64,000 nucleotides of DNA. Source: Salvelinus alpinus (lineage: Eukaryota > Chordata > Actinopteri > Salmoniformes > Salmonidae). The DNA is taken from NCBI RefSeq assembly GCF_045679555.1, contig NC_092122.1, forward strand, positions 13,319,043-13,383,042, given 5' to 3'. Below the pieces are notes generated by a model. That model was given only the letters and a program-made list of their open reading frames with translations, was not told the DNA's origin and did no database searches. Shown here one piece after another: positions 3,468 through 52,630 of the stretch (its first letter is position 1; every line of letters begins with the position of its first letter). Position numbers and translations under genes: made by a program.

Positions 3468-4375
3468 CTATTTCAACACAAAGGAGCTGATCGTGGACTT
3501 CAGGAGACAGCAGAAGGAGCATGCCCCCATCCACATCGATAGGACCGCATTGGAGAAGGTGAAAAGCTTCAAGTTCCTCTGCGCACACATCACTGACAAT
3601 CTGCACCGCCCGCAACTGCAGGGCTCTCCAGAGGCTGGTGCGGTCAGCCCAACGCATCACCGGGAGCACACTGCCTGCCCTTCAGGACATCTACAGCACC
3701 CAGGTTCACAGCAAGGCCAAGAAGATCATTAAGGACCTCAGCCACCCGAGCCGCGGCCTGTTCACCCCGCTATCATCCAGCGAGTTCAGTACAGGTGCAT
3801 CAAAGCTGGGACCGAGAGAATGAAAAACAGCTTCTATCTCAAGGCCATCAGACTGTTAAATAGCCATCACAAGCCGGCCTCCACCCATTACCCTGCCCTG
3901 AACTTAGTCACTGTCACTAGCATGCTACCACCCAGTTACTCAACCCTGCACCTTAGAGGTTGCTGCCCTATGTACATAGACATGGAATACTGGTCATTTT
4001 AATAATGGAATACTGTTCACTTTAATAATGTTTACATACTGTTCTACCCATTTCATATGTACTGTATATACTGTATTCTAGTCAAGGCCATCCTATTCAA
4101 CTAGTGCTGTACAGATACTATTCTATCCACATATTCTTCAGATATACTACATATTCTCTCCACATACTGTCCATAATGTCTATACTCCGGACTCCGACAT
4201 AGCTCGTCCTAATATTTCAAAATGTCTTAATTCCATTATTTTACTTGTAGATTTGTCTGTATTGTTGTGTATAGTTAGATATTAGTGCACTGTTGGCGCA
4301 AGGAACACCAGCATTTTGCTACCCCATAATAACATCTGCTAAATATGTATATGTGACCAATACAATTTGATTTGA
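3468..4375 (+). mobile_element. Rex1/Babar LINE 3' fragment
   Basis: From 3484 the plus strand reads the Rex1 RT C-terminal region (ELIVDFRRQQKEHAPIHID, then EKVKSFKFLCAHITDN), a shift, then QRITGSTLPALQDIYST and [16 protein letters not shown]. The 3' UTR ends in the typical repeated tail AATTTGATTTGAT at about 4375. It is 5'-truncated and about 80 percent like the longer Rex1 at 24-26 kb by eye, with at least one frameshift and a deletion near 3608. Not functional. Confidence 0.88.
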
Positions 4376-4816
4376 TAAGGTGATGAAAGCATTCCGCAGG
4401 AATGTTGGCCCATTTTGACTCCATTGCTTCCCACAGTTGTGTCAAGTTGGCTGGATGTCCTTTGGGTGGTGGACCATTCTTGATACACACGGAAAACTGT
4501 TGAGCGTGAAACACCCAGCAGCGTTGCAGTTCTTGACTCAAAGTGCTGCGCCTGGCACCTACTACCATATCCCGTTCAAAGGCACAATCTTTTGTCTTGC
4601 CCATTCACCCTCTGAATGGCACCCAAACACAATTGATACCTCAATCGTCTACATGCTAAAACATCCATATTTAACCTGTCTCCTCCCCATCATATACACT
4701 GATTGAAGTGGATTTAACAAGTGACATCAATAAGGGATCAAGGCTTTCACCTGGATTCACCTGATCAGTCTATGTCATGGAAACAGGTGTCCTTAATGTT
4801 TTGTATACTCAGTGTA

Positions 4817-5061
4817 GAATGGATGCATCCCTCTGCAGGCCTACCCACTCAGATTAGAATGAATAATAAACAATAATAAACAATGAAGTTAGAAAGAAAT
4901 ATGAATTTAGAAAGAAAGAAATACATTATGGTTCAGAACAGGATGTGTAGACATTTTATGTAAAGCTTTGCGTCTTAGTTTCTGTTACATGCGGAAATGA
5001 TCGGTCGAGGTACCGAAGTCAGCCCACACTCAACATGACTGAAATTCAATACTGTCTAGAC
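4817..5061. other. dram1a upstream region
   Basis: No gene. From about 4965 onward the sequence is paralogous to 36665 onward (dram1b) and to about 13190 onward (dram1 pseudogene), marking the left limit of the duplicated unit. Confidence 0.6.
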
Positions 5062-5069
5062 CACGTGAC
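5062..5069 (+). promoter_or_regulatory. CACGTGAC E-box / CLEAR-like motif upstream of dram1a
   Basis: CACGTGAC sits about 207 bp before the dram1a ATG and is kept in dram1b (36783-36790). The TFEB/TFE3 CLEAR consensus is GTCACGTGAC; here the core and 3' flank match but not the 5' flank. A lysosomal-autophagy gene is a plausible TFEB target. Binding is inferred, not shown. Confidence 0.45.
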
Positions 5070-16871: not shown

Positions 16872-17369
16872 CACTACCAGTCAAAAGTTTGGACACACCT
16901 ACTCATTCAAGGGTTTTTTCTTTATTTTTACTATTTTCTACATTGTAGAATAATAGTGAAGACATCAGAACAATGAAATAACACATATGGAATCATGTAG
17001 TAACCAAAAAAGTATTAAACAAATCAAAATATATATTTTATATTTGAAATTCTTCAAAGTAGCCACCCTTTGCCTTGATGACAGCTTTGCACACTCTTGG
17101 CATTCCCTCAACCAGCTTCATGAGGTATTACCTGGAATGCATTTCAATTAACATGTGTGCCTTGTTAAAAGTACATTTGTGGAATTTCTTTCCTTCTTAA
17201 TGCGTTTGAGCCAATCAATTGTATTGTGACAAGGTAGGGGTGGTATACAGAAGATGGCCCTATTTGGTAAAAGACCAAGTCCATATTATGCTCAAATAAG
17301 CAAAGAGAAATGACAGTGCATCACTACTTTAAGACATGAAGGTCAGTCTATCCGGATAATTCAAGAACA

Positions 17370-17783
17370 TTGAACGTTTCTTCAAGTGCAGTCGCAAAAA
17401 ACATCAAGCGCTATGATGAAACTGGCTCTCATGAGGACTGCCACAGGAAAGAATACCCACAGTTACCTCTGCTGCAGAGGATAAGTTCATTAGAGTTAAC
17501 TGCACCTCAGATTGCAGCCCAAATACTTGCTTCACAGAGTTCAAGTAACAGACACATCTCAACATCAACTGTTCAGAGGAGACTGCATGAATCTGGTCTT
17601 CATGGTCAAATTGCTACAAAGAAACCACTACTAAAGGACACCAATAAGAGGAAGAGACTTGCTTGGGCCAAGAAACACGAGCAATGGACATTAGACCGGT
17701 GGAAATCTGTCCTTTGGTCTAATGAGTCCAAATTTGAGATTTTTGGTTCCAACCGCCATGTCTTTGTGAGACACTGTCTGTGA
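17370..17783 (+). pseudogene. Tc1 transposase, N-terminal part
   Basis: Encodes the paired-like helix-turn-helix (NVSSSAVAKNIKRYDETGSH), the basic linker (STSTVQRRLHESGLHGQI) and the first catalytic block, where the usual WSDESKFEIFG reads [11 protein letters not shown]: the first Asp of the DDE triad is Asn. The reading frame leaves the transposase after HVFVR because of an internal deletion. An earlier start near 17281 is broken. Confidence 0.85.
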
Positions 17784-18687
17784 TTTATTTAGAATTCTGG
17801 GCACACTTAACCAGCATGACTACCACAGCATTCCGCAGCGATACGCTATCATTTACTTCCAAGATGGCGTAACAGTTGGACGTGTGTTTTGTCTTGTCCC
17901 ATCCTGTGTAACTATCGTTTTTTTCCCCTTGTTTTTTTCATATATATTTTAATCTCACTTTCCATCTACGGACTGAATATACTCTCCTGCAACCCGCCTC
18001 ACCCAATGTGGTACAGATCTGAACCTTTACACCGGATCATCGCAGCTAGCTAGCTGCAATCCGAGTGGCTACTCCTGACTAACATCTCTGTCCTGAAGCA
18101 AGAACAAGTTAGCCTTGAGCTAGCCTCGAGCTAGGCCCATCTCCTGGCTAGCCGAAGAGGTCCACCAGCCAATTCTTGGGATACAATACCTCTTTTGCCA
18201 ATTGGCCTGGACCGTTTAATGCCGACACGGAGCTCCGCGGATCCATCGCGACTGGTCTGCCGACGTAATGGTCTGAGGTGGTTTCAACAGGCTCTTCCAT
18301 TGCGACGTCGCCGGAGGCCCATCTGCTAGCCCCGGCCCGCTAGCTGTCTGAATCGCAGTGTCTCCAGCTCGCCTAGCGTAGTAGCGACTGCTGAATCGGC
18401 TCCCTGACTCATCTATTGCTACTCATTGGACCCTATGATCACTCGGCTACACAAGCCTCTCCCTAAAGTCAATATGTCTTGTCTATTGCTGTTTTGGTTA
18501 GTGATTATTGTCTTATTTCACTGTATAGCTCGCAGCCCTGCCCAATATGCCTTAGACAGCCCTTTTGTTCCACCCCCAACACATGCGGTGACCTCACCTG
18601 GGTAAATGGTGCCCTAGAGACAAAATCTCTCTCATCGTCACTCAATGCCTAGGTTTACCTCCACTGTACTCACATCCTACCATACCC

Positions 18688-19514
18688 TTGTCTGTACATT
18701 ATACCTTGAATCTATTCTTCCATGCCCAGAAATCTGCTCCTTTTACTCTCTGTTCCAAACGCACAAGACAACCAGTTCTTATAGCCTTTAGCTGTTCCTC
18801 TGGTGATGTAGAGGTTAACCCAAGCCATGCAGCCCCCAGCACCACTCCCATTCCCCGTAAAAGCCTTGAATTCACGCATGTCAACATGAGAAGCCTCCTC
18901 CCTAAGTTTGCTTTATTCACTGCTTTAGTACACTCAGCCAACCCGGATGTCCTAGCCGTGTCTGAATCCTGGCTTAGGAAGGCCACCAAAAATCCTGAAA
19001 TTTCCATCCCCAACTACAACATTTTCCAACAAGATAGAACTGCCAAAGGGGGCGGAGATGCAATCTACTGCAGAGATAGCCTGCAGAGTTCTGTCATACT
19101 ATCCAGGTCTGTGCCCAAACAGTTCGAGCTTCTACTTTTAAAAACCCACCTTTCCAGAAACAAGTCTCTCACCGTTGCCGCCTGCTATAGACCCCCCTCA
19201 GCCCCCAGCTGTGCCCTGGACACCATATGTGAATTGATTGCCCCCATCTATCTTCAGAGTTTGTACTGTTCGGTGACCTAAACTGGGATATGCTTAACAC
19301 CCCGGCCTTCCTACAATCTAAGCTAGATGCCCTCAATCTCACACAAATGATCAAGGAACCTACCAGGTACAACCTTAAATCCGTAACCATGGGCACCCTC
19401 TTAGATATCATCCTGACCAACTTGCCCACTAAATACACCTCTGCTGTCTTCAACCAGGATCTCAGCGATCACTGCCTCAATGCCTGCGTCCGTAATGGGT
19501 CCGCGGTCAAATGA
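18688..19514 (+). pseudogene. L2-like LINE endonuclease region
   Basis: Residues HVNMRSLLPKFALFTALV, ANPDVLAVSESWL and YNIFQQDRTAKGGG are typical of the apurinic-type endonuclease that nicks target DNA in L2/CR1 LINEs. The N and E positions (HVNMRS, SESWL) are present. A frame break near 19257 separates the second part (GDLNWDMLN, DIILTN, DLSDHC) which lies in another frame at 19262-19480; GDLNWD and SDH are the later catalytic blocks. Confidence 0.85.
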
Positions 19515-20105
19515 CCACCCCTCATCACTGTCAAACGCTCCCTAAAACACTTCTGCGAGCAGGCCTTTCTAATCGACCTGGCCCGGGTATCCTTGAAGGT
19601 TATTGACCTTATCCCGTCAGTAGAGGATGCCTAGTTGCTCTTTAAAAGTGCTTTAAAAAAACATCCTGTGGCGTTCTGCATTAGCATCGAATAGCCCCCG
19701 CAATAAGCAACTTTTCAGGGAAGTCAGTTAGGAAAGCTAAGGCTAGCTTTTTCAAAAATAAATTTGCATCCTGTAGCACTAATTCGAAAATGTTTGGGGA
19801 CACTGTAAAGTCCATGGAGAATAAGAGCACCTCCTCCCAGCTGGCTAGGAAACACTGTCATCACCGATAAATCTACGATAATCGATCATTTCAATAAGCA
19901 TTTTTCTACGGCTGGCCATGCTTTTCACCTGGCTACCCCTACCCTGGCCAACAGCTCTGCACCCCCTGCAGCAACTTGCCCAAGCCCCCCCCCTTCACCC
20001 AAATCCAGACAGCTGATGTTCTGAAAGAGCTGCAAAATCTGGATCCCTACAAATCAGCTGGGCTAGACAATCTGGACCCTCTCTTTCTAAAATTATAAGC
20101 CGAAA

Positions 20106-20645
20106 TTGTTGCAACCCCTATTACAAGCCTGTTCAACCTCTCTTTTGTATCGTCTGAGATCCCCAAAGATTGGAAAGCTGCTGCGGTCATCCACTCTAGA
20201 CCCAAACTCTTATAAACCGACAGTATATCCATCCTGCCCTGCATTTCTAAAAATCTTCGAAAGCCTAGTTAACAAACAGATCACCGACCATTTTGAATCC
20301 CGCCGTACCTTCTCCACTATGCAATCTGGTTTCCGAGCTGGTCACGTGTGCACCTCAGCCACGCTCAAGGTCCTAAATGATATCAATACCGCCATCGATA
20401 AAAGTGTACTGTGTACTAAAAGTGTACAGTACTGTGCAGCCGTCTTCATCGACCTAGCCAAGGCTTTTGACTCTGTCAATCACCGCATTCTTATTGGCAG
20501 ACTCAATAGCCTTGGTTTCTCAAATGACTGCCTCGCCTGGTTCACCAACTACTTCTCAGATAGAGTTCAGTGTGTCAATTCAGAGGGCCTGTTGTCCGGA
20601 TCTCTGGCAGGCTCTATGGGGGTGCTCTGGACGGTTCTGACTTAG
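20106..20645 (+). pseudogene. L2-like LINE reverse transcriptase, N-terminal half
   Basis: From about 20240 the frame reads AFLKIFESLVNKQITDHFES, MQSGFRAGH and FIDLAKAFDSVNHRIL (RT motif A, first catalytic Asp at 20451-20453). It stops at 20643-20645, before any VPQGS or YADD block. Downstream sequence returns to the LINE C-terminus (YLGVWLE-like, then AKHTLVKLTILPILDFGDVIYK), so this LINE carries an internal deletion of the RT palm. Confidence 0.85.
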
Positions 20646-21119
20646 AATATGTGGACAACTACAAATAGCTAGGTGTCTGGTTAGAGTGTAAACTCTCCTT
20701 ACAAAGCTTCCTTCACTCATGCTGCCAAACATACCCTCGTAAAACTGACTATCCTACCAATCCTTGACTTCGGCGATGTCATTTACAAAATAGTCTCCAA
20801 CACTCTACTCAGCAAACTGGATGTATATCACAGTGCCATCCGTTTTGTCACCAAAGCCTCATATACTACCCACCACTGCGACCTGTATGCTCTCGGTGGC
20901 TGGCACTCGCTACTTATTCATCGCCAAACCCACTGGCTCCAGGTCATCTATAAGTCTTTGCTAGGTAAAGCACCACTTTATCTCAGCTCACTGGTCACCA
21001 TTGCAGCACCCAACCTTAGCACGCGCTCCAGCAGGTATATTTCACTGGCCATCCCCAAAGCCAACACTTCCTTTGGCCGCCTCTCCTTATAGTTCTCTGC
21101 TGCCAATGACTGGAACGAA

Positions 21120-22244
21120 TTGCAAAAATCACTGAAGCTGGAGACTTATATCTCCCTCTCTAACTTTAAGCATCAGCTGTCAGAGCAGCTTACCGATCAC
21201 TGTACCTATACACAGCCAATCTGTAAATTGGCTACTACCTCATCCCCATATTGTTATTTATCTTCTTGCTCTTTTGCACCCCAGTATCTCTACTTGCACA
21301 TCATCATCTGCACACCTATCACTCCAGTGTTAATGCTACATTGTAATTATTTCGCCTCTATGGCCTATTTATTGCCTTACCTCCCTAATCTTGTAGCGGG
21401 TTTCTTATGTAGCTCCAGCTTCGCAATTCAACAGCTCAGACACAAGAGGTATGTGGCAGGGTCTACAGTCTACACGGATTACAAAAAGAAAACCAGCCCC
21501 GTCGCGGACCAGGATGTCTTGCTCCCAGACAGACTAAATAACTTTTTTGCTCGCTTTGAGGACAATACAGTGCCACTGACACGGCCCGCTACCAAAACCT
21601 GCGGGCTCTCCTTCACTGCAGCCGAGGTGAGTAAAACATTTAAACGTGTTAACCCTCGCAAGGCTGCAGGCCCAGACGGCATTCCCAGCCGCGTCCTCAG
21701 AGCATGCGCAGACCAGCTGGCTGGTGTGTTTAAGGACATATTCAATCAATCCTTATCCCAGTCTGCTGTTCCCACATGCTTCAAGAGGGCCACCATTGTT
21801 CCTGTTCCCAAGAAAGCTAAGGTAACTGAGCTAAACGACTACCGCCCCGTAGCACTCACTTCCGTCATCATGAAGTGCTTTGAGAGACTAGTCAAGGACC
21901 ATATCACCTCCACCCTACCTGACATCCTAGACCCACTCCAATTTGCTTACCGACCCAATAGGTCCACAGACGATGCAATCGCAACCACACTGCACACTGC
22001 CCTAACCCATCTGGACAAGAGGAATACCTATGTGAGAATGCTGTTCATCGACCTAGCCAAGGCTTTTGACTCTGTCAATCACCGCATTCTTATTGGCAGA
22101 CTCAATAGCCTTGGTTTCTCAAATGACTGCCTCGCCTGGTTCACCAACTACTTCTCAGATAGAGTTCAGTGTGTCAATTCAGAGGGCCTGTTGTCCGGAT
22201 CTCTGGCAGGCTCTATGGGGGTGCTCTGGACGGTTCTGACTTAG
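21120..22244 (+). pseudogene. Chimeric LINE frame, array unit 1
   Basis: A 374-residue open frame with three parts: L2-like C-terminus ([20 protein letters not shown]), Rex1 RT fingers ([53 protein letters not shown]) and, after FID at 22044-22052, L2-like motif A sequence ending at a stop. It lacks the YADD block, so it cannot be an active RT. The three parts share a frame by chance plus the in-frame junction; expression is unsupported. Confidence 0.85.
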
Positions 22245-22718
22245 AATATGTGGACAACTACAAATAGCTAGGTGTCTGGTTAGAGTGTAAACTCTCCTTA
22301 CAAAGCTTCCTTCACTCATGCTGCCAAACATACCCTCGTAAAACTGACTATCCTACCAATCCTTGACTTCGGCGATGTCATTTACAAAATAGTCTCCAAC
22401 ACTCTACTCAGCAAACTGGATGTATATCACAGTGCCATCCGTTTTGTCACCAAAGCCCCATATACTACCCACCACTGCGACCTGTATGCTCTCGGTGGCT
22501 GGCACTCGCTACTTATTCATCGCCAAACCCACTGGCTCCAGGTAATCTATAAGTCTTTGCTAGGTAAAGCACCACTTTATCTCAGCTCACTGGTCACCAT
22601 TGCAGCACCCAACCTTAGCACGCGCTCCAGCAGGTATATTTCACTGGCCATCCCCAAAGCCAACACTTCCTTTGGCCGCCTCTCCTTATAGTTCTCTGCT
22701 GCCAATGACTGGAACGAA

Positions 22719-23843
22719 TTGCAAAAATCACTGAAGCTGGAGACTTATATCTCCCTCTCTAACTTTAAGCATCAGCTGTCAGAGCAGCTTACCGATCACT
22801 GTACCTATACACAGCCAATCTGTAAATTGGCTACTACCTCATCCCCATATTGTTATTTATCTTCTTGCTCTTTTGCACCCCAGTATCTCTACTTGCACAT
22901 CATCATCTGCACACCTATCACTCCAGTGTTAATGCTACATTGTAATTATTTCGCCTCTATGGCCTATTTATTGCCTTACCTCCCTAATCTTGTAGCGGGT
23001 TTCTTATGTAGCTCCAGCTTCGCAATTCAACAGCTCAGACACAAGAGGTATGTGGCAGGGTCTACAGTCTACACGGATTACAAAAAGAAAACCAGCCCCG
23101 TCGCGGACCAGGATGTCTTGCTCCCAGACAGACTAAATAACTTTTTTGCTCGCTTTGAGGACAATACAGTGCCACTGACACGGGCCGCTACCAAAACCTG
23201 CGGGCTCTCCTTCACTGCAGCCGAGGTGAGTAAAACATTTAAACGTGTTAACCCTCGCAAGGCTGCAGGCCCAGACGGCATTCCCAGCCGCGTCCTCAGA
23301 GCATGCGCAGACCAGCTGGCTGGTGTGTTTACGGACATATTCAATCAATCCTTATCCCAGTCTGCTGTTCCCACATGCTTCAAGAGGGCCACCATTGTTC
23401 CTGTTCCCAAGAAAGCTAAGGTAACTGAGCTAAACGACTACCGCCCCGTAGCACTCACTTCCGTCATCATGAAGTGCTTTGAGAGACTAGTCAAGGACCA
23501 TATCACCTCCACCCTACCTGACATCCTAGACCCACTCCAATTTGCTTACCGACCCAATAGGTCCACAGACGACGCAATCGCAACCACACTGCACACTGCC
23601 CTAACCCATCTGGACAAGAGGAATACCTATGTGAGAATGCTGTTCATCGACCTAGCCAAGGCTTTTGACTCTGTCAATCACCGCATTCTTATTGGCAGAC
23701 TCAATAGCCTTGGTTTCTCAAATGACTGCCTCGCCTGGTTCACCAACTACTTCTCAGATAGAGTTCAGTGTGTCAATTCAGAGGGCCTGTTGTCCGGATC
23801 TCTGGCAGGCTCTATGGGGGTGCTCTGGACGGTTCTGACTTAG
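22719..23843 (+). pseudogene. Chimeric LINE frame, array unit 2
   Basis: Same 374-residue arrangement as unit 1, with two amino-acid differences: R for P in VPLTRAATKT, and T for K in AGVFTDIFN. It ends at the same L2-derived stop. Confidence 0.85.
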
Positions 23844-24317
23844 AATATGTGGACAACTACAAATAGCTAGGTGTCTGGTTAGAGTGTAAACTCTCCTTAC
23901 AAAGCTTCCTTCACTCATGCTGCCAAACATACCCTCGTAAAACTGACTATCCTACCAATCCTTGACTTCGGCGATGTCATTTACAAAATAGTCTCCAACA
24001 CTCTACTCAGCAAACTGGATGTATATCACAGTGCCATCCGTTTTGTCACCAAAGCCCCATATACTACCCACCACTGCGACCTGTATGCTCTCGGTGGCTG
24101 GCACTCGCTACTTATTCATCGCCAAACCCACTGGCTCCAGGTAATCTATAAGTCTTTGCTAGGTAAAGCACCACTTTATCTCAGCTCACTGGTCACCATT
24201 GCAGCACCCAACCTTAGCACGCGCTCCAGCAGGTATATTTCACTGGCCATCCCCAAAGCCAACACTTCCTTTGGCCGCCTCTCCTTATAGTTCTCTGCTG
24301 CCAATGACTGGAACGAA

Positions 24318-26189
24318 TTGCAAAAATCACTGAAGCTGGAGACTTATATCTCCCTCTCTAACTTTAAGCATCAGCTGTCAGAGCAGCTTACCGATCACTG
24401 TACCTATACACAGCCAATCTGTAAATTGGCTACTACCTCATCCCCATATTGTTATTTATCTTCTTGCTCTTTTGCACCCCAGTATCTCTACTTGCACATC
24501 ATCATCTGCACACCTATCACTCCAGTGTTAATGCTACATTGTAATTATTTCGCCTCTATGGCCTATTTATTGCCTTACCTCCCTAATCTTGTAGCGGGTT
24601 TCTTATGTAGCTCCAGCTTCGCAATTCAACAGCTCAGACACAAGAGGTATGTGGCAGGGTCTACAGTCTACACGGATTACAAAAAGAAAACCAGCCCCGT
24701 CGCGGACCAGGATGTCTTGCTCCCAGACAGACTAAATAACTTTTTTGCTCGCTTTGAGGACAATACAGTGCCACTGACACGGCCCGCTACCAAAACCTGC
24801 GGGCTCTCCTTCACTGCAGCCGAGGTGAGTAAAACATTTAAACGTGTTAACCCTCGCAAGGCTGCAGGCCCAGACGGCATTCCCAGCCGCGTCCTCAGAG
24901 CATGCGCAGACCAGCTGGCTGGTGTGTTTAAGGACATATTCAATCAATCCTTATCCCAGTCTGCTGTTCCCACATGCTTCAAGAGGGCCACCATTGTTCC
25001 TGTTCCCAAGAAAGCTAAGGTAACTGAGCTAAACGACTACCGCCCCGTAGCACTCACTTCCGTCATCATGAAGTGCTTTGAGAGACTAGTCAAGGACCAT
25101 ATCACCTCCACCCTACCTGACATCCTAGACCCACTCCAATTTGCTTACCGACCCAATAGGTCCACAGACGACGCAATCGCAACCACACTGCACACTGCCC
25201 TAACCCATCTGGACAAGAGGAATACCTATGTGAGAATGCTGTTCATCGACTACAGCTCAGCATTTAACACCATAGTACCCTCCAAACTCGTCATCAAGCT
25301 CGAGACCCTGGGTCTCGACCCCGCCCTGTGCAACTGGGTCCTGGACTTCCTGATGGGCCGCCCCCAGGTGGTGAGGGTAGGTAACAACATCTCCACCCCG
25401 CTGATCCTCAACACTGGGGCCCCACAAGGGTGCGTTCTGAGCCCTCTCTTGTACTCCCTGTTCACCCACGACTGCGTGGCCATGCACGCCTCCAACTCAA
25501 TCATCAAGTTTGCGGACGACACTACAGTGGTAGGCTTGATTACCAACAACGACGAGACGGCCTACAGGGAGGAGGTGAGGGCCCTCGGAGTGTGGTGTCA
25601 GGAAAATAACCTCACACTCAACGTCAACAAAACAAAGGAGATGATTGTGGACTTCAGGAAACAGCACCCCCCTATCCACATCGACGGGACAGTAGTGGAG
25701 AAGGTGGAAAGTTTTAAGTTCCTCGGTGTACACATCACGGACAAACTGAATTGGTCCACCCACACAGACAGCGTTGTGAAGAAGGCGCAGCAGCGCCTCT
25801 TCAACCTCAGGAGGCTGAAGAAATTCGGCTTGTCACCAAAAGCACTCACAAACTTCTACAGATGCACAATCGAGAGCATCCTGTCGGGCTGTATCACCGC
25901 CTGGTACGGCAACTGCTCCGCCCACAACCGTAAGGCTCTCCAGAGGGTAGTGAGGTCTACACAACGCATCACCGGGGGCAAACTACCTGCCCTCCAGAAC
26001 ACCTACACCACCCGATGTCACAGGAAGGCCATAAAGATCATCAAGGACAACAACCACCCGAGCCACTGCCTGTTCACCCCGCTATCATCCAGAAGGCGAG
26101 GTCAGTACAGGTGCATCAAAGCAGGGACCGAGAGACTGAAAAACAGCTTCTATCTCAAGGCCATCAGACTGTTAAACAGCCACCACTAA
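24318..26189 (+). CDS. Rex1/Babar LINE reverse transcriptase, 5'-truncated, with an L2-like N-terminal extension
   Basis: 623-residue open frame, the longest in the window. Residues 1 to about 95 are the L2-like LINE C-terminus; the rest is Rex1: a spacer (MWQGLQ region, shifted), fingers ([13 protein letters not shown]), motif [12 protein letters not shown], motif [19 protein letters not shown], motif [12 protein letters not shown] (25509-25520), and the downstream [13 protein letters not shown] and [11 protein letters not shown] blocks to RLLNSHH. All RT catalytic residues (FID, FADD) are present. The endonuclease half is missing, so the copy cannot move by itself. Rex1 copies this open are usually young. 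Confidence 0.9.
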
Positions 26190-27226
26190 CATTTAGTGGC
26201 CGCTGCCAACATACTGACTCAACTCTAGCCACTTTAATAATGGGAATTGATGGAAATTATGTAAAAATGTATCACTAGCCACTTTAAACAATGCCACTTA
26301 ATATAATGTTTACATACCCTACATTACTCATCTCATATGTATATGTATATACTGTACTGTATATCATCTACTGCATCTTGCCATCTTTATGTAATACATG
26401 TATCACTAGCCACTTTAAACTATGCCACTTTATGTTTACATACCCTACATTACTCATCTCATATGTATAGACTGTACACTATACCATCTACTGCATCTTG
26501 CCTATGCCGTTCTGTACCATCACTCATTCATATATCTTTATGTACATATTCTTTATCCCTTTACACTTGTGTGTATAAGGTAGTAGTTGTGGAATTGTTA
26601 GGTTAGATTACTTGTTGGTTATTACTGCATTGTCGGAACTAGAAGCACAAGCATTTCGCTACACTCGCATTAACATCTGCTAACCATGTGTATATGACAA
26701 ATAAAATTTGATTTGATGTACCACAGGAGAACCAAGAAATGAAGAGCAACACCACGGCTGTCTTTTAGGCTTTTATGTTGATCTGCAATAGTATTGTGAA
26801 AAGACAGGACAGGAACACATCAGTCTCCAATGCACCATCTGACAAGTTGTTCTTTCTCTCTCAGTGTTTTCTCGGACTGAGGAGAACGGGAGCTACGGGC
26901 AGTACCGGGGTGCTAGTAGGCGACACAAGCACCCAGATGAAATAAAATACATTTAATGAAACAAAACCTGAAGATGTTAACATCATTCAGCTACTGCAGC
27001 TGCCTACCTAACATCAACAGACAGCACCAGTAGCGTAACAATTAAAAATAGACACCAAAAGTAAAGTTCCTGGCGATCATAGCGATCTGACTCCCCCCTT
27101 CTGTCTGAACTTGGAATATTCCTGTTCGCGGGCTTTGGCCACTGACCCTCAACCTGGTTGTTCTGTTCTGCGTTGTGTACTATTCTAATAATTTGAAGTT
27201 TGATGGAATAACCATTTTAACTCTAC
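26190..27226 (+). other. Rex1 3' UTR (to about 26715) and an unidentified 500-bp piece
   Basis: 26190-26715 is the Rex1 3' UTR with its internally repeated CACTAGCCACTTTAAA.AATGCCACTT blocks and the AATAAAATTTGATTTGAT tail. 26716-27226 is not L2 or Rex1 as far as I can tell; it holds an inexact AATAAAATACATTTAATG near 26943 and no long frame. Confidence 0.7.
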
Positions 27227-27418
27227 TACATTTGCACACACTGTACATCGATTTTTTATTTTGTGTTATTGACTGTACGTTTGTTTATGTGTAACTCTGT
27301 GTTGTTGTTTTTGTCGCACTGCTTTGCTTTATCTTGGCCAGGTCGCAGTTGTAAAGGAGAACTTCTTCTCAACTGGCCTACCTGGTTAAATAAAGGTGAA
27401 ATTAAAAAATTAAAAAAT

Positions 27419-27661
27419 GTTTTTCAACAGGAGAATGACCCAAAACACACCTCCAGGCTGTGTAAGGGCTATTTGCCTGAGAAGGAGAGTGATGGAGTGC
27501 TGCATCAGATGACCTGGCCTCCACAATCACCCGACCTCAACCCAATTGAGATGGTTTGGTATTTGGATTTCAGAGTGAAGGAAAAGCAGCCAACAAGTGC
27601 TCAGCATATGTGGGAACTCCGTCAAGACTGTTGGAAAATCATTCCTCATGAAACTGGTTGA
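27419..27661 (+). pseudogene. Tc1 transposase, C-terminal part
   Basis: Continues the element at 16872: FQQENDPKHTSRLCKGYL (second catalytic block, QQDNDPKH in active relatives, here E for D) and [18 protein letters not shown] (third block). It ends in a stop after IPHETG, followed by a remnant of the last helix in another frame. Separated from its N-terminal half by the LINE complex. Confidence 0.9.
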
Positions 27662-33060: not shown

Positions 33061-33762
33061 ATTAATCCTCTTCATCAGATGAATGCTGCCTTAGATGCTC
33101 AGTCTCGTTCTGTGTGATTGTGTCAAGATGATTCTTCAGGTACGCCATACCTGTACATTGGAAACAATTACATTCACGTATTCAGTGTTTCAGCAAACTC
33201 TGTTGTATGTGGCTGGCAACACAATCATATTATTGACATTGCAATAGCTCTAACACAGACTTGCGCACTTGTTATTCTCAGATACTGAGATTGATTTGAG
33301 TTGTTCAAATACATTCAGACCTAACAAATTCTCTAATGTTGAGGTGAGTCCATGTCTGGCTGTACCCAAACATAGTTATATGCAAAGGTTGCTGTCCAGC
33401 ACCTGTAATGCAACTTAAATAATGAAAAAAAGAAAAACAAACAATTAAAGAAAAGACTCAAAGACCAAAAGATATCATCATATGGACAATGAGGTTAACC
33501 TTTTGGAGTAAAGAAATCATACCGGCTATGATGACATCAGCTTTGTCAGTCCAAAACATCTTGAACTTTGGCAGAAGCAATAAGCTGTGGCTACTCCATA
33601 ATTTCTCCAAAGCGCTTTTGGAGACCGTTCTGAATGGCTCTGAGAAGTGGTAGGCACATTTGGAAAGATGCTTCCAACCTTTGAAGTTTTGTTTTTAGTA
33701 AGAAGATCACTAGCAGCAGCCACCCCATATGCGTTTTGGTCTCAGACTCTAGACGACTGTAG
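33061..33762. other. No feature recognised
   Basis: May include the missing part of the hAT element (33061-33360), but I see no diagnostic motif. 33480-33740 has short minus-strand frames only. Confidence 0.4.
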
Positions 33763-34400
33763 ATGAAAATGAACAAACTAAAGGGTGTGAAATGTGTAGG
33801 TCCACTGAGTGTACATTCTGAACCTTGTTTGAAGTCATTAGGTCACATGACCAAGCTTTTAAAGTTTGAAAAATGACTGTACAATCTTGTGAGATGAAAA
33901 TGGACAAACTAAAGGGTGTGCAATATAGAGGGGTAGTCAGGGGACATTCTGAACCTTCTTTGAGTCCAGTAGGTGACATGACCAAGGAGCTATTGAAATG
34001 TGAAAGTTTACAATTTTAATGTAAAAATGTGTGAGATGAAAATGGACAAACTAAAGGGTATGAAATGTGTAGTTCCACTGAGTGTACATTCTGAACTTTG
34101 TTTAAAGTCAGTAGGTCGTATGACCAAGGAGCTATTGAAATTAGAATGTTTGAAAAATTCATGTAAAAATGTGTGAGATGAAAATGGGCAAACTAAAGGG
34201 TGTGAAATGTGTAGGCCCACTCAGTGGACATTCTGAACCTTGTTTGAAGTCAGTAGGTCATATGACCAAATTCAAAAATGTAAATAAATAAATTAAAATA
34301 GTGCGAGATGTAAATCGACCAAAAAGTGTGTGCAATGTATGTCTATGCCATCAGGTTAGCTACAACCAGTTTTGAAAGTTTTAGGAGTAATGGTTAAAGA
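33763..34400. repeat. Tandem array, about 4-5 units of 130-143 bp
   Basis: GATGAAAATG.ACAAACTAAAGGG recurs at about 33763, 33894, 34037 and 34177, with a diverged unit near 34309. Each unit also has CATTCTGAACCTTGTTTGAAGTCAGTAGGTCA.ATGACC. Spacings 131, 143, 140 and 132 bp. Not coding: the frames on either strand are short and interrupted. Confidence 0.88.
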
Positions 34401-36961: not shown

Positions 36962-39900
36962 ATGTTTTGGTTCATGGACATGAAGGGAATATGCGTTTTA
37001 CCAGTTTTCTTGGTCATCTGGTCATCCAGCACGTTTATTGTTTCCTACGTAATTGCATTGTTCGAGCATGATGTGGGTTTTATTTTACCCTATATAAGGT
37101 AGGTAAGAATTTAGAACAAGACGATTGTAGGCTATTAATATTTATCAGTTGCCTAATAGTTTTTATTTTCCACGAACTGCCTTTCTTTATCAAACTGTTA
37201 ATAAGATTACACATGTAGTGGAGGGATAGGCCTGCGCCTTATCAATTACGTAGTACAATATAAAAAATCATGCACAAAGTAGCCTATACAAACGCAAAGC
37301 ATGTGAAATATATTCACAGCCTAGTTTCAACAGAATCTCATCTGTCAGGCAGCAAGAGCGTTCAGCTCTCAACTGGGTACCAGTACATGCTAACCAATGC
37401 AACAATGGGTATGCAACCCAAGTCGACTTCGAAGGCTTGGTTGGATATTGACGATGCGCAATTCAATCATCATGCGTTGTTTGAATAAACATGTCTAAAG
37501 GCATTCCCAAAACACCTTCCCAGTTAAACGTTGACCGCAAGGATTGCATCATAATGATTTGTCTCAATCGGGAAGGCATTTGTTAAGCAAACTCTGCCAT
37601 CACATGTCGGTCATTGTACAGTAGCCTACAGAAACACTGCTAGTTTATGAAGTTTCTTGCTAGGTGCGCAATGAATTAGGGGAACCCAGACCTCAAAAAG
37701 TCTCCTGATGTGGTTTAACATTGTTGTGGACTTAGAACATCACATTTGTTCTGTTTTTCTGTTAAATGGTGTGCTTTTGAGAGTGAATCTGAAAATCTAT
37801 AGAAAACAGAATTGTTCCTTTCCTTCGCTGGGAGGGTCCTAGCGCATAGAACCCTAGAGGGCGTGGTTCTTCCTGATGTCGTATGACAAACAACATAAAA
37901 AGAATAATAACACCATCTTGTGCCTGTTGGGCTACCCAGGTCCCAGCTGTGTAGCCAACTGCGTAGAGGTCTGTGAACTACTTACTAGCCAGTGTGTTTC
38001 CTTACTTGACTTTTAAAGGGAAAAAGCTCTTACACCAAAAGGGCATTATCAACATGTTCACAATTTCACAGTATTATTCCAACCTCATAGTGTGGTAATA
38101 TAAAGCACAAAAAAAATCTGGTTTTGGACTGCACTGGGCCTTAAACATATCAACATTTTTAAAATGCCCTCTAGACACTGCAGAATTACACCCATTAAAC
38201 CTGAACTCTTCTTTTCTTTAGTGAAATTGGGGCTAAACCCCCAGAGAGTTGTATCTTTGGCTTGATGACGGTCATCACTGCATTTGCAGGTGAGCACAGA
38301 AAGACACTAAAACCATGAAAGGCCTTTTGTTTTTGTCTGAGCTTAAGCAACCTCATGGGTTTTTCCAGGTCAGCGACTGTGCCAAAAGCTTTAGTCACAC
38401 TTCCCATTTTTTTGAAAATGAAAGTAGAAATGCATGGCAAGAAAAGGCTGGGATCAATGGTATAAGATCATTTTACTGAGTATTACATATAAGTTCCCTA
38501 TGTTTTAAAGTGCAAATTAAATAAATACATAAATATTGCAGGTTTTACATTGCCCTACAGTAGCCTGTGAGCGAATACTGTCTAAATGTGACATTTTAAA
38601 ATAAAAACATTCACTCCATGTGCCATACCAAATCCTCTACAGGTATGGCCACCATGTATGCCAGATACAAGTTTGTGGAGAAGCTCAATGAGAAGGCAGG
38701 TGGTGTTCCCCCAGTGCTGAACCAGGCTGCTTTATGGATTGGAACGCTTTCTTGTTTGGGGATGTGTTTTGTCGCTACTTTCCAGGTAGGTTGTCACCTC
38801 TTAAGTGAGAAGATGGAGTGTCATATTCAATACATGATCTCTCTGGTGTGTTCTTTTACCCCAGGAAACAACGATTATTCAAGTTCATGATGCAGGTGCA
38901 ATACTCTTCTTCGTTTCTGGTGTGTTGTACACCATCCTCCAGTCCATTATATCCTATAAGACCTTCCCCTATGGATGTTCCATGGCCTTGTGCCATGTGC
39001 GCACAGGAATGGCAACCATGGGCTTCCTGGCAGTTCCCCCCAGTATCCTTGAAGACAATAGTAATCCATTGTGTCTAAATTATTTTAATCATGAATGATC
39101 ATTGTTTTATCAAAGAAAAGGTCTCCTTCATTTTCCAACCAGCTATTATCTTTGCCTTACTGCATAGAACTGAAGACAAGGTACGGTATGAGCACATCTT
39201 TACCAAGAACACAACAAACAACAAAGATGGGCAACATTCTGGATCCATATACAGTTGAAGTCAGAAGATTACATACACTTCGGTTGGAGTCATTTAAACT
39301 TGTTTTTTCAACCACTCCAACCACACAAGTAATTTGTCCAACAATTGTTTCCAGACAGATTATTTCACTGTATCACAATTCCAGTTTGTCAGAAGTTTAC
39401 ATACACTAAGTAGACTGTGCATTTAAACAGCTTGTAAAATTCCAGAAAATGATGTCATGGCTTTAGAAGCTTCTGATAGGCTAATTGACATAATTTGAGT
39501 CAATTGGAGGTGTACCTGTGGATTTATTTCAAGGCCTACCTTCAAACTCAGTGCCTCTTTCCTTGAAATCATGGGAAAATCAAAAGACCTCAGAAGAAAA
39601 ATTGTAGACCTCCACAATTCTGGTTCATCCTTGGGAGCAATTTCCAAATGCCTGAAGGTACCACGTTCATCTGTACAAACAATAGTACGCAAGTATAAAC
39701 ACCATGGGACCACGCATCCGTCATACCGCTCAGGAAGGAGATGCGTTCTGTCTCCTAGAGATGAACGTGCTTTGGTGCGAAAAATGCAAATCAATCCCAG
39801 AACAACAGCAAAGGACCTTGTGAAGATGCTGGAGGAAACGGGTACAAAAGTATCTATATCCACAGTAAAACGAGTCCTATATTGACATAACCTGAAAGGC

Positions 39901-41070
39901 CGGTCGGCAAGGAAGAAGCCACTGCTCCAAAACCGCCATAAAAAGCCAGACTACGGTTTGCAACTGCACATTGGGACAAAGGTCATACTTTTTGAGGACA
40001 AAGATCGTACTTTTTGGAGAAATATCCTCTGGTCTGATGAAACAAAAATAGAACTGTTTGGCCATAATGACCTTTGTTGTTTGGAGGAAAAAGGGGGAGA
40101 AGCACAGGGGTGGCAGCATCATGTTGTGGGGGTGCTTTGCTGCAGGAGGGACTGGTGCACTTCACAAAATAGATGGCATCATGAGGAGGAAAATTACGTG
40201 GATATATTGAAGCAACATCTCAAGACATCAATCAGGAAGTTAAAGCTTGGTCGCAAATGGGTCTTCCAAATGGACAATGGCCCCAAGCATACTTCCAAAG
40301 TTGTGGCAAACTGCTTAAGGACAACAAAGTCAAGGTATTGGAGTGGCCATCACAAAGCCCTGACCTCAATCCCATAGAAAATTTGTGGGCAGAACTGAAA
40401 AAGCGTGTGTGAGCAAGGAGGCCTACAAACCTGACTCAGTTACACCAGCTCTGTCAGGAGGAATGGGGAATGGGCCTTGTGGAAGGCTACCCGAAACGTT
40501 TGACCAAAGTTAAACAATTTAAAGCCAACGCTACCAAATACTAATTGAGCGTATGTAAACTTCTGACCCACTGGAAATGGACTGAAAGAAATAAAAGCTG
40601 ACATAAATAATTCTCTCTACTATTATTCTGACATTTCACATTCTTAAAATAAAGTGGTGATAAAGTGGTGATCCTAACTGACCTAAGACAGGGAATTTTT
40701 GTCAGGAATAGTGAAAAACCGAGTTTAAATGTATTTGGCTAAGGTGTATGTAAACTTCTGACTTCAACTGTAGGCTTTATAGGCCAGAGAAGCTATACGT
40801 GCCAATATCAGTCTCTATCCGACTTCCTGTCATTACAGGACAATGTGTTCCATCTGGTGAGTGCTGTGAGTGAGTGGATCGTGGTCTTCAGCTTCATCTT
40901 CTTCTTCTTCACCTACATCCACGACTTTAAAGTGAGTTTTCAGTCACCGCTCTGTCATTGTGGTGGGAAATCATTATCCTTTTCTTCTCCTTTATTTGAG
41001 TGTTTTTATTTCTATGTCTTGTTTCTTACAGAAGTTTATTCTGAAGCTGAGAACAGAGTTTGTTTCCTGA
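36962..41070 (+). CDS. dram1: dram1b, tandem duplicate of DNA damage-regulated autophagy modulator 1
   Basis: Seven exons as in dram1a: 36962-37098, 38222-38289, 38643-38785, 38865-39042, 39143-39180, 40839-40931, 41032-41070; 696 nt, 231 residues plus TGA, all open with consensus splice sites. Differences from dram1a: two extra residues near the start ([12 protein letters not shown] against MLWFMEGICF), a 21-nt in-frame loss in exon 5 ([14 protein letters not shown] against PTVVCAVFVTQTTLHRKTEDE) that shortens a predicted membrane helix, and a C-terminus two residues shorter (RTEFVS). Exon 3 is identical to dram1a exon 3 at the DNA level while exons 1 and 4 differ by roughly 10 percent. Intron 5 and the 3' UTR each hold a Tc1. 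Likely expressed, but loss of half a helix could alter topology. Confidence 0.9.
39252..40770 (+). mobile_element. Sleeping Beauty-type Tc1 element in dram1b intron 5
   Basis: 1519 bp between TA dinucleotides (39250-39251 and 40771-40772). Outer repeats CAGTTGAAGTCAGAAGATTACATACAC and its complement at the right, plus inner direct repeats near 39386 and 40552 (AGAAGTTTACATACACTAAG type), the IR/DR layout of this family. The matching place in dram1a reads CCATATAGGC, the empty site. Sense orientation with dram1b. Confidence 0.96.
39571..40531 (+). pseudogene. Sleeping Beauty-type Tc1 transposase, degraded
   Basis: First frame (39571-39885) carries the paired-like DNA-binding domain: [36 protein letters not shown] and STVKRVLY, ending in a stop. 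The catalytic domain follows in other frames: [14 protein letters not shown] (40036-40077), then a shifted HHVVGVLCC region, [12 protein letters not shown]-like, [14 protein letters not shown] (40263 onward) and SPDLNPIEN in another frame. All three DDE residues can be seen, but at least three stops or shifts separate them, so it is dead. Confidence 0.92.
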
Positions 41071-41126: not shown

Positions 41127-42655
41127 CTGTCCATTCAGAAACTATTCAGACCCTTTCACTTTTTCCACATTTTGTTACGTTACAGCCTTATTCTAAAATG
41201 TATTAAATTGTGTTTTTCCCCCAATCTACACACAATACCCCATAATGACAAAGCAGACAGGTTTTTAGAAATTTTTGCTAATGTATAAAAATAAACTGAA
41301 ATATCACCTTTACGTAAGTATTCAGACCCTTTACTCAGTACTTTGTTTTAAGCACCTTGGGCATCGATTACAGCCTTAAGTCTTATTGGGTATGAAACTA
41401 CAAGGTTGGCACACCTGCATTTGGGCAGTTTCTCCCATTCTTCTCTGCAGATCCTCTCAAGCTCTGTCAGGTTGGATGGGGAGCATCGCTGCACAGCTAT
41501 ATTCAGGTCTCTCCAGAGATGTTCGATCGGGTTTAAGTCCGGGCTCTGGCTGGGCCACTCAAGGACATTCAGAGGTGTGTCCCGAAGCTACTCCTGCGTT
41601 GTCTTGTCTGTGCTTAGGGTCGTTGTCCTGTTGGAAGGTGAACCTTCGCCCCAGTCTGAGATCCTGAGTGCTCTGGAGCAGGTTTTCATCAAGGATCTCT
41701 ATGTACTTTGTTCCGTTCATCTTTCCCTCGATCCTGACTAGTCTCCCAGTCCCTGCCACTGAAAAACATCCCCACAGCATGATGCTGCCACCACCATGCT
41801 TCATCGTATTCCTCCAGACGAGATTCTTGACATTCAGCCCAAATAGATCAATGTTGGTTTCTTCTGACCAGAGAATCTTGTTTATCATTATCTGAGAGTC
41901 CTTTAGCTGCCTTTGGGCAAACTCCAAGCAGGCTGCCTTTTTCTGAGGAGTGGCTTCTATTTGGCCACTCTGCCATAAAGGCCTGATTTGTGGAGTGCTG
42001 CAGAAATGGTTGTCATTCTGGAAGGTTCTCCCATCTCCACAGAGGAACTCTGGAGCTCTGACAGAGTAACCATCAGGTTCTTGGTTACCTCCCTTGCCAA
42101 GGACTTCTCCACCGATTGCTCAGTTTGGCCAGGAAGAGTCTTGCTGGTTCCAAACTTCTTCCATTTAAGAATGATGGTGGCCACTGTTTTCTTGGGGACC
42201 TTCAATGCTGCAGAAATGTTTTGGTACCCTTCCCCAGGTCTGTGCTTCAACACAATCCTGTCTCAGAGCTCTACGGACAATTGCTTCGACCTCATGGCTT
42301 GGTTTTTGCTCTGACATTCACTGTCAACTGTAGGACCTTATATAGACAGTTGTGTGCCTTTCCAAATCATATCAAATCAATTGAATTTACCACAGGTGGA
42401 CTCTAATCAAGTTCTAAAAACATCTCAAAGACGATCAATGGAAACAGGATCCACCTGAGCTCAATTTCAAGTCTCATAAAAGGATCTGAATACTTAAGTA
42501 AGTTATTTCAACAACAAAAAAATTGCTTTGTCATTATGGGGTATTGTGTGTAGATTGATGAGGAAAACATTTTATTTAATCAATTTTAGAATAAGGCTGT
42601 AACGTAACAAAATGTGGAAAAAGTGAAGGGGTGTGAATACTTTCCAAATGCACTG
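41127..42655 (-). mobile_element. Tc1-like element in the dram1b 3' UTR
   Basis: Right end TTTCCAAATGCACTG then TA (42656-42657), left end CTGTCCATTCAGAAACTATTCAGACCC (diverged copy of the same terminus). The flank at the right, TATGAGATTATCTGAATGG, continues exactly as in dram1a after position 8119, so the insertion site is in the paralogous 3' region. About 20 bp of host sequence seems lost at the left side. Confidence 0.9.
41360..42330 (-). pseudogene. Tc1 transposase in the dram1b 3' element
   Basis: Minus strand. N-terminal part 42253-41957 has GYQNISAALKVPKKTVATII (helix-turn-helix) and [14 protein letters not shown]. Catalytic part 41927-41559: [13 protein letters not shown] (usual WSDET, Asp replaced by Glu), [45 protein letters not shown], after which the frame is lost. 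[11 protein letters not shown] is readable near 41550-41515 in a different frame. The frames are separated and it is not active. Confidence 0.88.
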
Positions 42656-44579: not shown

Positions 44580-47500
44580 TCAATCGCTGAAAGATGACTC
44601 ACTGCCATCATCGCTGTCATCATCTTGATCCAGTGTTTTCTTTTTGACGGCATCAGGCACAGGTGCATCTGGTGTGCTGCATACAGAAACATGTAGGAAT
44701 CACCATTGTTACTTAAAATAACTGTAGAACCACCATTTTATGACATTCAGATGTGGGTATAAAACAAAACGTATTGGATTACAAGGTATGAGAATACAGA
44801 TATTACAAAGATGTAATGTAAGCACACTCACTCAAGCAGTTTGGGATCCAAACCTTCCTGGACCATTTTATTCTTTATCGCCATAACTGGAACACCCTGT
44901 TTTTGAAAAGTTTTCTACATTACTGATTTCATTGAACAGATTTCACATTTCTATAGCATATGACAATGTATAGAGACCTACCACTTGCACCATCTTGAGA
45001 TATCTGGCATAGCGTGGGTCCTTGGCCACAGTCATCCAACTGTCTCCTGCTGCCTCTGCTGCTCTTGGTTCTGTTATGTTTGGAGAAGCCTACAATAGAG
45101 TCAATACTGCAATTCAGTATTTCCATCATGCACAAATACACCAAGTCTTTAAGTTATTGTTCCATCAAAAAATGGATATGTTGAAATCCCAGGAGGTTGG
45201 TGACACCTCAACTGGGGAGGACAGGCTCGTGGTAACAGCTGGAGCGGAATCAGTGGAATGGTATCAAATACATCAAACATGGTTTCTAAGTGTTTGATGC
45301 CGTTTCATTCGCTCCGTTCCGGCCATTATTATGAGCCGTCCTCCCCTCAGCAACCTCCACTGATTTAAATATATGTAGTTGTGTGCATAAGCCAACTACA
45401 CAATTACTGTGTGTGTAGTGCCTTCAGAAAGTATTCATACCCCTTGACTTATTACATTTTTTCCCCTCACCCGTCTACACACAATACTCCACAATGACAA
45501 AGTGAAAACATGTTTAGACATTTTTGCAAATATATAGAAAATTAAATACAGAAATATCTCATTTACATATGTATTCACACCCAAGTTAATACTTTGTAAA
45601 AGCACCTTTGGCAGCAATTACAGCTGTGAGTTGTCTTCAGTGTCTGTTAGCTTTGCACTTCTGGATTTTAGGATTTTCTCCCTTGCAGATTTTCTCAAGC
45701 TCTGTTAAGTTAGATAGGGAGCAGCAATCTTCAAGTCTTTCCACAGATTTAATGGTATTCAAGTCTGGTCTATGGCTGGGCCACTCAAGCACTTTGACTG
45801 TATGCTTTGGGTCATTGCCCTGTTGGAACGTAAATCGTTGCCCCAGTCTAAGGTCGTTTGCAGGTTCTCATCAAGGATTTGCCTGTATTTGGCTCCATTC
45901 ATTGTTCCCTCTATCCTAACCAGTCTCCCTGCCACTGAAAAGCATCCCCATAGCATGATGCTGCCACCACTATGCTTCACAGTAGGGATGGTGTTAGACG
46001 GGTGATGAGCTGTGCCAGGTTCTCTTCCGGTATAACGCTTTGCATTCAGGCCAAAGAGTTACATTTTTGTCTCAGACCACAGAATCTTTTGTCTTATGAG
46101 CTCAGTCTTTCATGTGCCTTTTTGCAAACTCCAGGCGTGCTGTCATGTGCCTTTTTCTCAGGAGTGGCTTCCGTCTGGTCCCTCTCCCATAAAGCCCAGA
46201 TTGGTGAAGTGCTTTAGAGACTGTTGTCCCTTCTGACAAGTTCTCCCATCTCAGCCAAGGAACTATGTAGTTCTGTCAGAGTGGTCATTTTGGTCTTGTG
46301 ACCTCCCTGGCCAAGGTCCTTCTTGCCCGTTTGGTCAGACGACCATCTCTAGGCAGAGTCCGGGTAGTTCCAAATTTTTCCAATTTCCCAATTGTGGAGA
46401 CCACTACTCTTGAAAACTTTCAACACTCTAGTTTTATACCCTTCCCCAGATATATGCCACATCACAATTATACACTGCTCAAAAAAATAAAGGGAACACT
46501 AAAATAACACATCCTAGATCTGAATGAATGAAATATTCTTATTAAATACTTTTTTCTTTACATAGTTGAATGTGCTGACAACAAAATCACACAAAAATGA
46601 TCAATGGAAATCAAATTTATCAACCCATGGAGGTCTGGATTTGGAGTCACACTCAAAATTAAAGTGGAAAACCACACTACAGGCTGATCCAACTTTGATG
46701 TAATGTCCTTAAAACAAGTCAAAATGAGGCTCAGTAGTGTGTGTGGCCTCCACGTGCCTGTATGACCTCCCTACAACGCCTGGGCATGCTCCTGATGAGG
46801 TGGCGGAGGGTCTCCTGAGGGATCTCCTCCCAGACCTGGACTAAAGCATCCGCCAACTCCTGGACAGTCTGTGGTGCAACGTGGTGTTGGTGGATGGAGC
46901 GAGACATGATGTCCCAGATGTGCTCAATTGGATTCAGGTCTGGGGGACGGGCGGGCCAGTCCATAGCATCAATGCCTCATGAGGTCTAGCATTGTCTTGC
47001 ATTAGGAGGAACCCAGGGCCAACCGCACCAGCATATGGTCTCACAAGGGGTCTGAGGATCTCATCTCGGTACCTAATGGCAGTCAGGCTACCTCTGGCGA
47101 GCACATGGAGGGCTGTGCGGCCCCCCAAAGAAATGCCGACCCACCGCCAAACCGGTCATGCTGGAGGATGTTGCAGGCAGCAGAACGTTCTCCACGGCGT
47201 CTCCAGACTCTGTCACATGTGGTCAGTGTGAACCTGCTTTCATCTGTGAAGAGCACAGGGCGCCAGTGGCGAATTTGCCAATCTTGGTGTTCTCTGGCAA
47301 ATGCCAAACGTCCTGCACGGTGTTGGGCTGTAAGCACAACCCCCACCTGTGGACGTCGGGCCCTCATACCACCCTCATGGAGTCTGTTTCTGTCCGTTTG
47401 AGCAGACACATGCACATTTGTGGCCTGCTGGAGGTCATTTTGCAGGGCTCTGGCAGTGCTCCTCCTGCTCCTCCTTGCACAAAGGCGGAGGTAGCGGTCC

Positions 47501-48076
47501 TGCTGCTGGGTTGTTGCCCTCCTACTGCCTCCTCCACGTCTCCTGATGTACTGGCCTGTCTCCTGGTAGCGCCTCCATGCTCTGGACACTACGCTGACAG
47601 ACACAGCAAACCTTCTTGCCACAGCTCGCATTGATGTGCCATCCTGGATGAGCTGCACTACCTGAGCCACTTGTGTGGGTTGTAGACTCCGTCTCATGCT
47701 ACCACTAGAGTGAAAGCACCGCCAGCATTCAAAAGTGACCAAAACATCAGCCAGGAAGCATAGGAACTGAGAAGTGGTCTGTGGTCACCACCTGCAGAAC
47801 CACTCCTTTATTGGGGGTGTCTTGCTAATTGCCTATAATTTCCACCTGTTGTCTATTCCATTTGCAAAACAGCATGTGAAATTTATTGTCAATCAGTGTT
47901 GCTTCCTAAGTGGACAGTTTGATTTCACAGAAGTGTGATTGACTTGGAGTTACATTGTGTTGTTTAAGTGTTCCCTTTATTTTTTGGAGCAGTGTATATT
48001 GGAGATATATGAAAAAAAAAAAAAATGTAATCCATTTTTGAATTCAAGGGTATGAATACTTTCTGAAGGCACTGTG

Positions 48077-50037: not shown

Positions 50038-52630
<2,593 letters not shown>

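Follow-up and report, generated by a model that had tools for sequence, protein, structure and literature searches.

The stretch analysed here, 64,000 nucleotides of the genome of Salvelinus alpinus (RefSeq assembly GCF_045679555.1, contig NC_092122.1, positions 13,319,043 to 13,383,042 of the forward strand, hereafter the window), holds a small tandem array built from pieces of two long interspersed nuclear elements (LINEs) of different families. Very probably the array originated as a tandem duplication at a 9-bp microhomology within nested, dead LINEs, and then grew from two copies to three. The microhomology lies in motif A of the reverse transcriptase (RT) of both LINEs. The two families are putatively L2 and Rex1, the labels given in the first-pass annotation, and they are called L2-like and Rex1-like throughout. 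The wording "Rex1-like" is preferred because, according to one report (PMC6274825), Rex1 had been missed in trout in early studies. The genome searched throughout is the one from which the window is taken (2.37 Gb in 928 contigs).

The array and its three units

Comparison of the window with itself showed three head-to-tail units of exactly 1599 bp each over 20445-25241. The 9-mer TTCATCGAC occurs at 20445, 22044, 23643 and 25242, with no further copy in the window on either strand, in full agreement with the period and positions given by the first-pass annotation. The parts of the array, numbered along the window, are the following:

20445..22043, plus strand: unit 1, 1599 bp, with derived bases at 20859 and 21974
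22044..23642, plus strand: unit 2, 1599 bp, with two private bases, G (23184) and C (23332), and a derived A at 22544 in common with unit 3
23643..25241, plus strand: unit 3, 1599 bp, with a derived A at 24143 in common with unit 2
25242..25250, plus strand: closing 9-mer TTCATCGAC, where the Rex1-like LINE has its native motif A

The self-match at a lag of 1599 spans 20445 to 23651, its seven mismatches corresponding to five positions of the unit, and the edges of this self-identity are sharp and coincide with the edges of the 9-mer. Out of 1599 positions, units 1 and 2 differ at five, units 1 and 3 at three, and units 2 and 3 at two; all the differences are substitutions and there are no indels, so that the small divergence between units that had been noticed at first sight is confirmed. 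The frame is likewise kept across the units, as claimed earlier (1599 = 3 x 533), and all four 9-mers encode the F-I-D of RT motif A in one reading frame. Full units were found at this locus only (3 of the 42 matches listed, from the best 40 of 8189 candidates scored). With its near-identical head-to-tail units at a single locus between native flanks, the array shows a feature of CUP1-like tandem duplication.

An assembly stutter, in which one or two units are real and the assembler added the extra copies, is an unlikely explanation. The window contains no N and is part of an 18.9 Mb sequence; the five substitutions between units, with no indels and with a derived base common to units 2 and 3, argue against such an artefact; and the hybrid junction described below needs at least two units, which an added third does not explain. 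In its favour, the array is read from assembled sequence, and the private C of unit 2 at unit position 1288 is also found in three of five other Rex1-like copies, as mis-polishing could yield.

Two LINE families joined at one type of hybrid junction

Comparison with other genomic copies bore out that the array is composed of two LINE families in the same orientation. RVT_1 is found in both of them (Pfam), and a protein alignment of the L2-like with the Rex1-like sequence sets F-I-D on F-I-D. Rex1-like copies are continuous across motif A in all five loci fetched (from 39 Rex1 places among the matches listed); three of the five reach 26716-26717 in one piece, and two reach 26382 and go on in a second piece. 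For the L2-like family 27 loci were fetched, of which 12 match across motif A, each in one piece. The 9-mer of these 12 is TTCATCGAC in seven, TTCATTGAC in four and TTCAATGAC in one. The remaining 15, among them L026 with a deletion at the site, give no match across motif A; six of the 27 align over 19657-20625 in one piece. A further fetched locus, L009, plays no part in these comparisons. Since both families run across F-I-D elsewhere, the first and the last of the four 9-mers each represent the native motif A of one LINE. Just one adjacency is new, that of Rex1-like fingers to L2-like palm, which occurs twice:

22044..22052, plus strand: hybrid junction 1, Rex1-like fingers / TTCATCGAC / L2-like palm
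23643..23651, plus strand: hybrid junction 2, a copy of junction 1

A single type of junction, present twice, points to one event and not to several. The first-pass annotation had placed every junction of the array in motif A; this amounted to counting one event repeatedly and included the two native sites. The hybrid junction itself does fall exactly in the shared 9-mer, and the comparison with other genomic copies gave no junction away from it. A 180-bp query centred on the junction returned two full-length matches, both in the array, among the best 40 of 693 candidates; the other 38, all Rex1, end at base 98-99, which is the end of the 9-mer. Both breakpoints are inside transposons in direct orientation, as in transposable element-mediated rearrangements (TEMRs), and at homologous positions of the two families compared here, with an overlap equal to the 9-bp microhomology.

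The nested locus

When the array is collapsed to one unit, two motif A sites remain, 1599 bp apart, in direct orientation and both with TTCATCGAC. The locus is nested: an L2-like LINE is cut by a repeat, here called X, and X is cut in turn by a 5'-truncated Rex1-like LINE. Its parts are as follows:

18592..20444, plus strand: 5' portion of the L2-like LINE as far as motif A, to the left of the array, with RT fingers and the remnant of a decayed endonuclease (Exo_endo_phos, RVT_1)
20625..20703, plus strand: two internal deletions of the L2-like LINE, in each unit
21392..21408, plus strand: 5' end of repeat X, in each unit
21421..22052, plus strand: RT fingers of the 5'-truncated Rex1-like LINE, as far as motif A, here in unit 1 and again in units 2 and 3
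25242..26717, plus strand: rest of the Rex1-like LINE, RT palm with FADD as motif C, and 3' untranslated region (UTR) (RVT_1, genomic copies)
26718..27219, plus strand: main part of repeat X, target of the Rex1-like insertion (39 other scored places)
27220..27418, plus strand: 3' tail of the interrupted L2-like LINE, the first ~11 bases possibly being the end of X (26 of 27 loci)

The L2-like LINE breaks off near 21395 and resumes at 27220-27418, and 26 of the 27 loci fetched align on both sides of the insert, L036 matching the first side only. The Rex1-like LINE is thus located in the 3' part of the L2-like one, as first proposed. The two LINEs are not simply adjacent: repeat X, overlooked by the first-pass annotation, stands between the two. 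In the L2-like 5' part, Pfam detects RVT_1 at 20091-20642 and, slightly below the cut-off (24 vs 24.5 bits), Exo_endo_phos in 18592-19278. Compared with other copies, this LINE has lost about 277 and 60 bases at ~20625 and ~20703, respectively; the extra bases of the other copies at ~20625 include YADD in four of the six examined, and the deletion at this point removed the motif C stretch. The Rex1-like LINE begins, truncated, at 21421; upstream of this point five other copies have over 1 kb in common. RVT_1 is complete (positions 1-205 of 205) over the open reading frame 24291-26186, where FADD is motif C of the Rex1-like palm, and other Rex1-like copies align from 24619 to 26382-26717. The Rex1-like 3' UTR contains a direct duplication of ~127 bp with 85% identity (26257-26382 and 26387-26502); the same cross-matching is seen in three of five Rex1-like copies (L004, L006 and L008), and it may therefore be a feature of the family.

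Repeat X has 39 other scored places in the genome (best 40 of 151 candidates) and is possibly a non-autonomous DNA transposon; its outer ends resemble TGTAG...CTACA by eye. Many copies have the first ~160 bp apart from the rest, and bases 66-136 repeated. The 5' end of X (21392-21408) was recognized by direct reading: in L063 and L064 the rest of X directly follows the same bases, and in L061 and L062 it follows nearly the same ones. A BLAST search with the two parts of X joined gave an alignment that does not run through the 25 nt at 21396-21420, and the 12 nt between the 5' end of X and the Rex1-like part (21409-21420) are of unclear origin. No target-site duplication was found, in terms of an exact repeat of at least 7 bp between 21340-21470 and 26691-26790, the outer ends of X having been inspected by eye only.

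This arrangement bears on a chimera formed at the RNA level, in which an RT copying Rex1 and L2 RNAs would have jumped from one to the other, the product then being inserted. For LINE-1, insertions chimeric with other RNAs have been reported (PMC13174262). However, the outer flanks of the array are the undisturbed native continuations of each LINE, the units stand head to tail, and the matches examined include no other hybrid; such an origin is already disfavoured and highly improbable.

Is motif A a special site?

The L2-like part (18801-21395) was compared with the Rex1-like part (21421-26717), for which the array was collapsed to a single unit. They share 25 exact matches of at least 9 bp, the longest being 11 bp, and 200 shuffles in a near-identical comparison (observed 25) gave an expectation of 24.5 +- 5.2, so that a shared 9-mer is expected by chance. 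Of the 25, just the 9-mer used in the junction lies at homologous codons. It also stands alone in register among 339 matches of at least 7 bp, and no other identical stretch of the codon alignment exceeds 6. Because it stands alone in register and forms the longest run, the conservation of motif A probably supplied the microhomology. The chance of an in-register match is about 1 in 25 (~4%), a figure judged after the fact for one event, and the position of the junction at motif A is a modest coincidence in an ordinary transposon-associated tandem duplication.

The same features could be explained by a homeology-guided exchange, in which the RT genes would have paired along the RT domain and been resolved at the best-matching motif A; this would make conserved RT codons a recombination substrate between LINE clades. 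It would account for the sole in-register match and for the longest run. Nevertheless, the aligned RT parts are just ~42% identical in DNA (216/516 bases), which is not a high similarity between partners, a single event is at hand, with neither a second hybrid in 18 pattern matches nor a reciprocal junction (see below), and the one-in-25 odds were assessed after the fact. This exchange is improbable in our judgement.

Search for further hybrid junctions

The genome was searched for the hybrid-junction pattern with up to two mismatches. The search gave 18 matches, two of which are exact and belong to the array, the exact junction being found nowhere else. None of the other 16 joins Rex1 fingers to an L2 palm, breakpoints away from motif A not having been searched. 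These 16 loci are L042-L051 and L054-L059 (L052 and L053 are wider views of L049 and L044, respectively). The site is L2-like in five of them (L042, L045, L046, L051 and L059), Rex1-like in six (L043, L044, L049, L050, L055 and L057), and matches neither family in five (L047, L048, L054, L056 and L058). The reciprocal L2-to-Rex1 junction had no match at up to one mismatch.

Two of the Rex1-like loci have an apparent break at F-I-D and were rejected as hybrids. In L049 (L052) a Rex1-like copy holds an array of ~61-bp repeats at this point, and in L044 (L053) the Rex1-like copy is interrupted, 18 bp past motif A, by an insertion of 1.8 kb. As the search pattern itself selects for breaks at F-I-D, L049 and L044 are no evidence of a hot spot. 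In L052 (G000:C7:14973000-14982000, reverse strand) the ~61-bp array occupies about 4347-5068, right after motif A, with 35 bp of Rex1 on both sides.

A recurrent use of RT codons as recombination microhomology, in extension of what the first-pass annotation proposed, finds no backing in these results, with no second hybrid among the 18 matches and no reciprocal product. The broader view would be that RT active-site codons, kept similar by selection, are a ready-made microhomology by which recombination at corresponding sites would join nested LINEs from separate clades, giving in-frame RT chimeras at the DNA level; we hold it to be distinctly improbable. If inter-clade LINE junctions were enriched at conserved RT codons, modular evolution of the RT would have a route at the DNA level, which this locus alone does not demonstrate. 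Recombination between different LINE clades at RT codons is undescribed in the top-ranked open-access titles and abstract openings listed, which is no proof of absence, and no relatives of either LINE were found in viral contigs.

Likely order of copying and proposed origin

The state of each variable base was judged against the 27 L2-like and five Rex1-like genomic loci. Units 2 and 3 have A at unit position 500, where unit 1 and 26 of 27 L2-like loci have C. Unit 1 alone carries a change at positions 414 and 1529 (C in 26 of 27 L2-like and in 5 of 5 Rex1-like loci, respectively), and position 1140 is changed in unit 2 only (C in all five Rex1-like loci). Position 1288 is C in unit 2 and A in units 1 and 3, and the Rex1-like family is mixed there (three C, two A). 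L008 and L006, the copies most similar to this Rex1, both have A, which favours an ancestral A, that is, a private change of unit 2. A sister relation of units 2 and 3 agrees with four of the five sites, and one of these four is informative. A duplication first, and then a second step within the pair, is a likely but not certain order, as judged from these bases.

According to the proposed mechanism, a break or a stalled replication fork would have been repaired by means of the 9 bp on the sister chromatid or the homologue. The route would be microhomology-mediated end joining or break-induced replication, with a join without insertion or loss; microhomologies of 5-20 bp are given for some break-induced replication in PMC4232551, in a passage citing earlier work. 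The segment between the two motif A sites would thereby have been duplicated, creating one Rex1/L2 hybrid junction. The two identical 1.6-kb copies could then have grown to three by ordinary unequal homologous exchange, with units 2 and 3 as sisters.

Several points weigh against this reconstruction. The end product does not reveal which pathway carried out the repair in the first step. The copying order has a single shared derived base behind it, and position 1288, if its ancestral state were C, would contradict this order by uniting units 1 and 3, or alternatively point to gene conversion or to a polishing error. Finally, the copy number of three is read from one assembly and is unproven in the animal.

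Coding capacity of the hybrid

In unit 1 the hybrid frame is open from 21093 to 22241 and matches positions 1-113 of 205 of the RVT_1 profile. The hybrid RT frames reported by the first-pass annotation are real insofar as Rex1 fingers are joined in frame to an L2 palm. They lack, however, motif C (the pattern [FYL]xDD is absent from every frame of the three units) and stops occur in every frame. For these two reasons the hybrid cannot be a working RT, and this candidate was discarded; no function of the array is expected.

Other elements in the window

A second, older Rex1-like fragment is present at 3474-4376, with pieces 78-85% identical to the Rex1-like LINE of the array, and a further LINE RT at 50151-51011, in two open pieces (RVT_1 positions 33-128 and 130-205). 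Remnants of Tc1/mariner-like transposases are located at 17340-17783, 27221-27661, 39499-40377, 41559-42119 and 47083-47784; Pfam transposase domains were found in those starting at 17340, 47083 and, below the curated cut-off, 27221, while 39499-40377 and 41559-42119 were judged by eye. A 142-bp tandem repeat occupies 33761-34269 (~2.9 copies, 82%). On the minus strand, an open frame at 2047-2394 carries a Stealth_CR1 domain (Pfam), which we take to be typical of GNPTAB, and an exon of a host gene may lie there.

Comparison with known systems

The array has several traits in common with the human TEMRs of PMC9675761, in the part of that study consulted: both breakpoints are in direct transposons and at homologous positions, the microhomology has the length of the overlap, and the product is a chimeric element. 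In that data set 33 of 493 rearrangements are duplications, and microhomology in the homology-driven class is 17 bp at the median. The pairs there, Alu or LINE-1, were aligned with a single consensus for each class of element, and the median similarity of homology-driven LINE-1 pairs is 93.5%. Unlike those cases, the present one involves two LINE families ~42% identical in the aligned RT, and the copy number reached three.

Directly oriented LINEs are also the partners of local duplications in LINE-LINE nonallelic homologous recombination, as presented in the portion of PMC4344489 consulted, where they are more than 4 kb long and more than 95% identical. The L2-like and Rex1-like LINEs are too different for an event of this type, so only the second step, unit with unit, which is itself an inferred one, would fit it. 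A further parallel is offered by the yeast CUP1 arrays, as described in the available text of PMC4232551: in both systems a single-copy segment is duplicated without long homology, and the size of the array can then be altered by unequal exchange, whereas here 9 bp are involved and the array has no visible use.

Moreover, the locus resembles the tandem repeats and satellites derived from transposons that are treated in PMC9659126, at least in the sections consulted, in having LINE coding sequence as a seed and microhomology joining and unequal exchange as possible routes; it differs from them in consisting of three units at one locus, with no satellite formed. The general kind of rearrangement has already been described, and the difference here is that the partners come from two LINE families ~42% identical in the aligned RT part. 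The locus is a clean and recent example of nested transposons seeding a small tandem array, in which the steps can still be read: nesting, duplication at a microhomology and then, probably, growth from two units to three.

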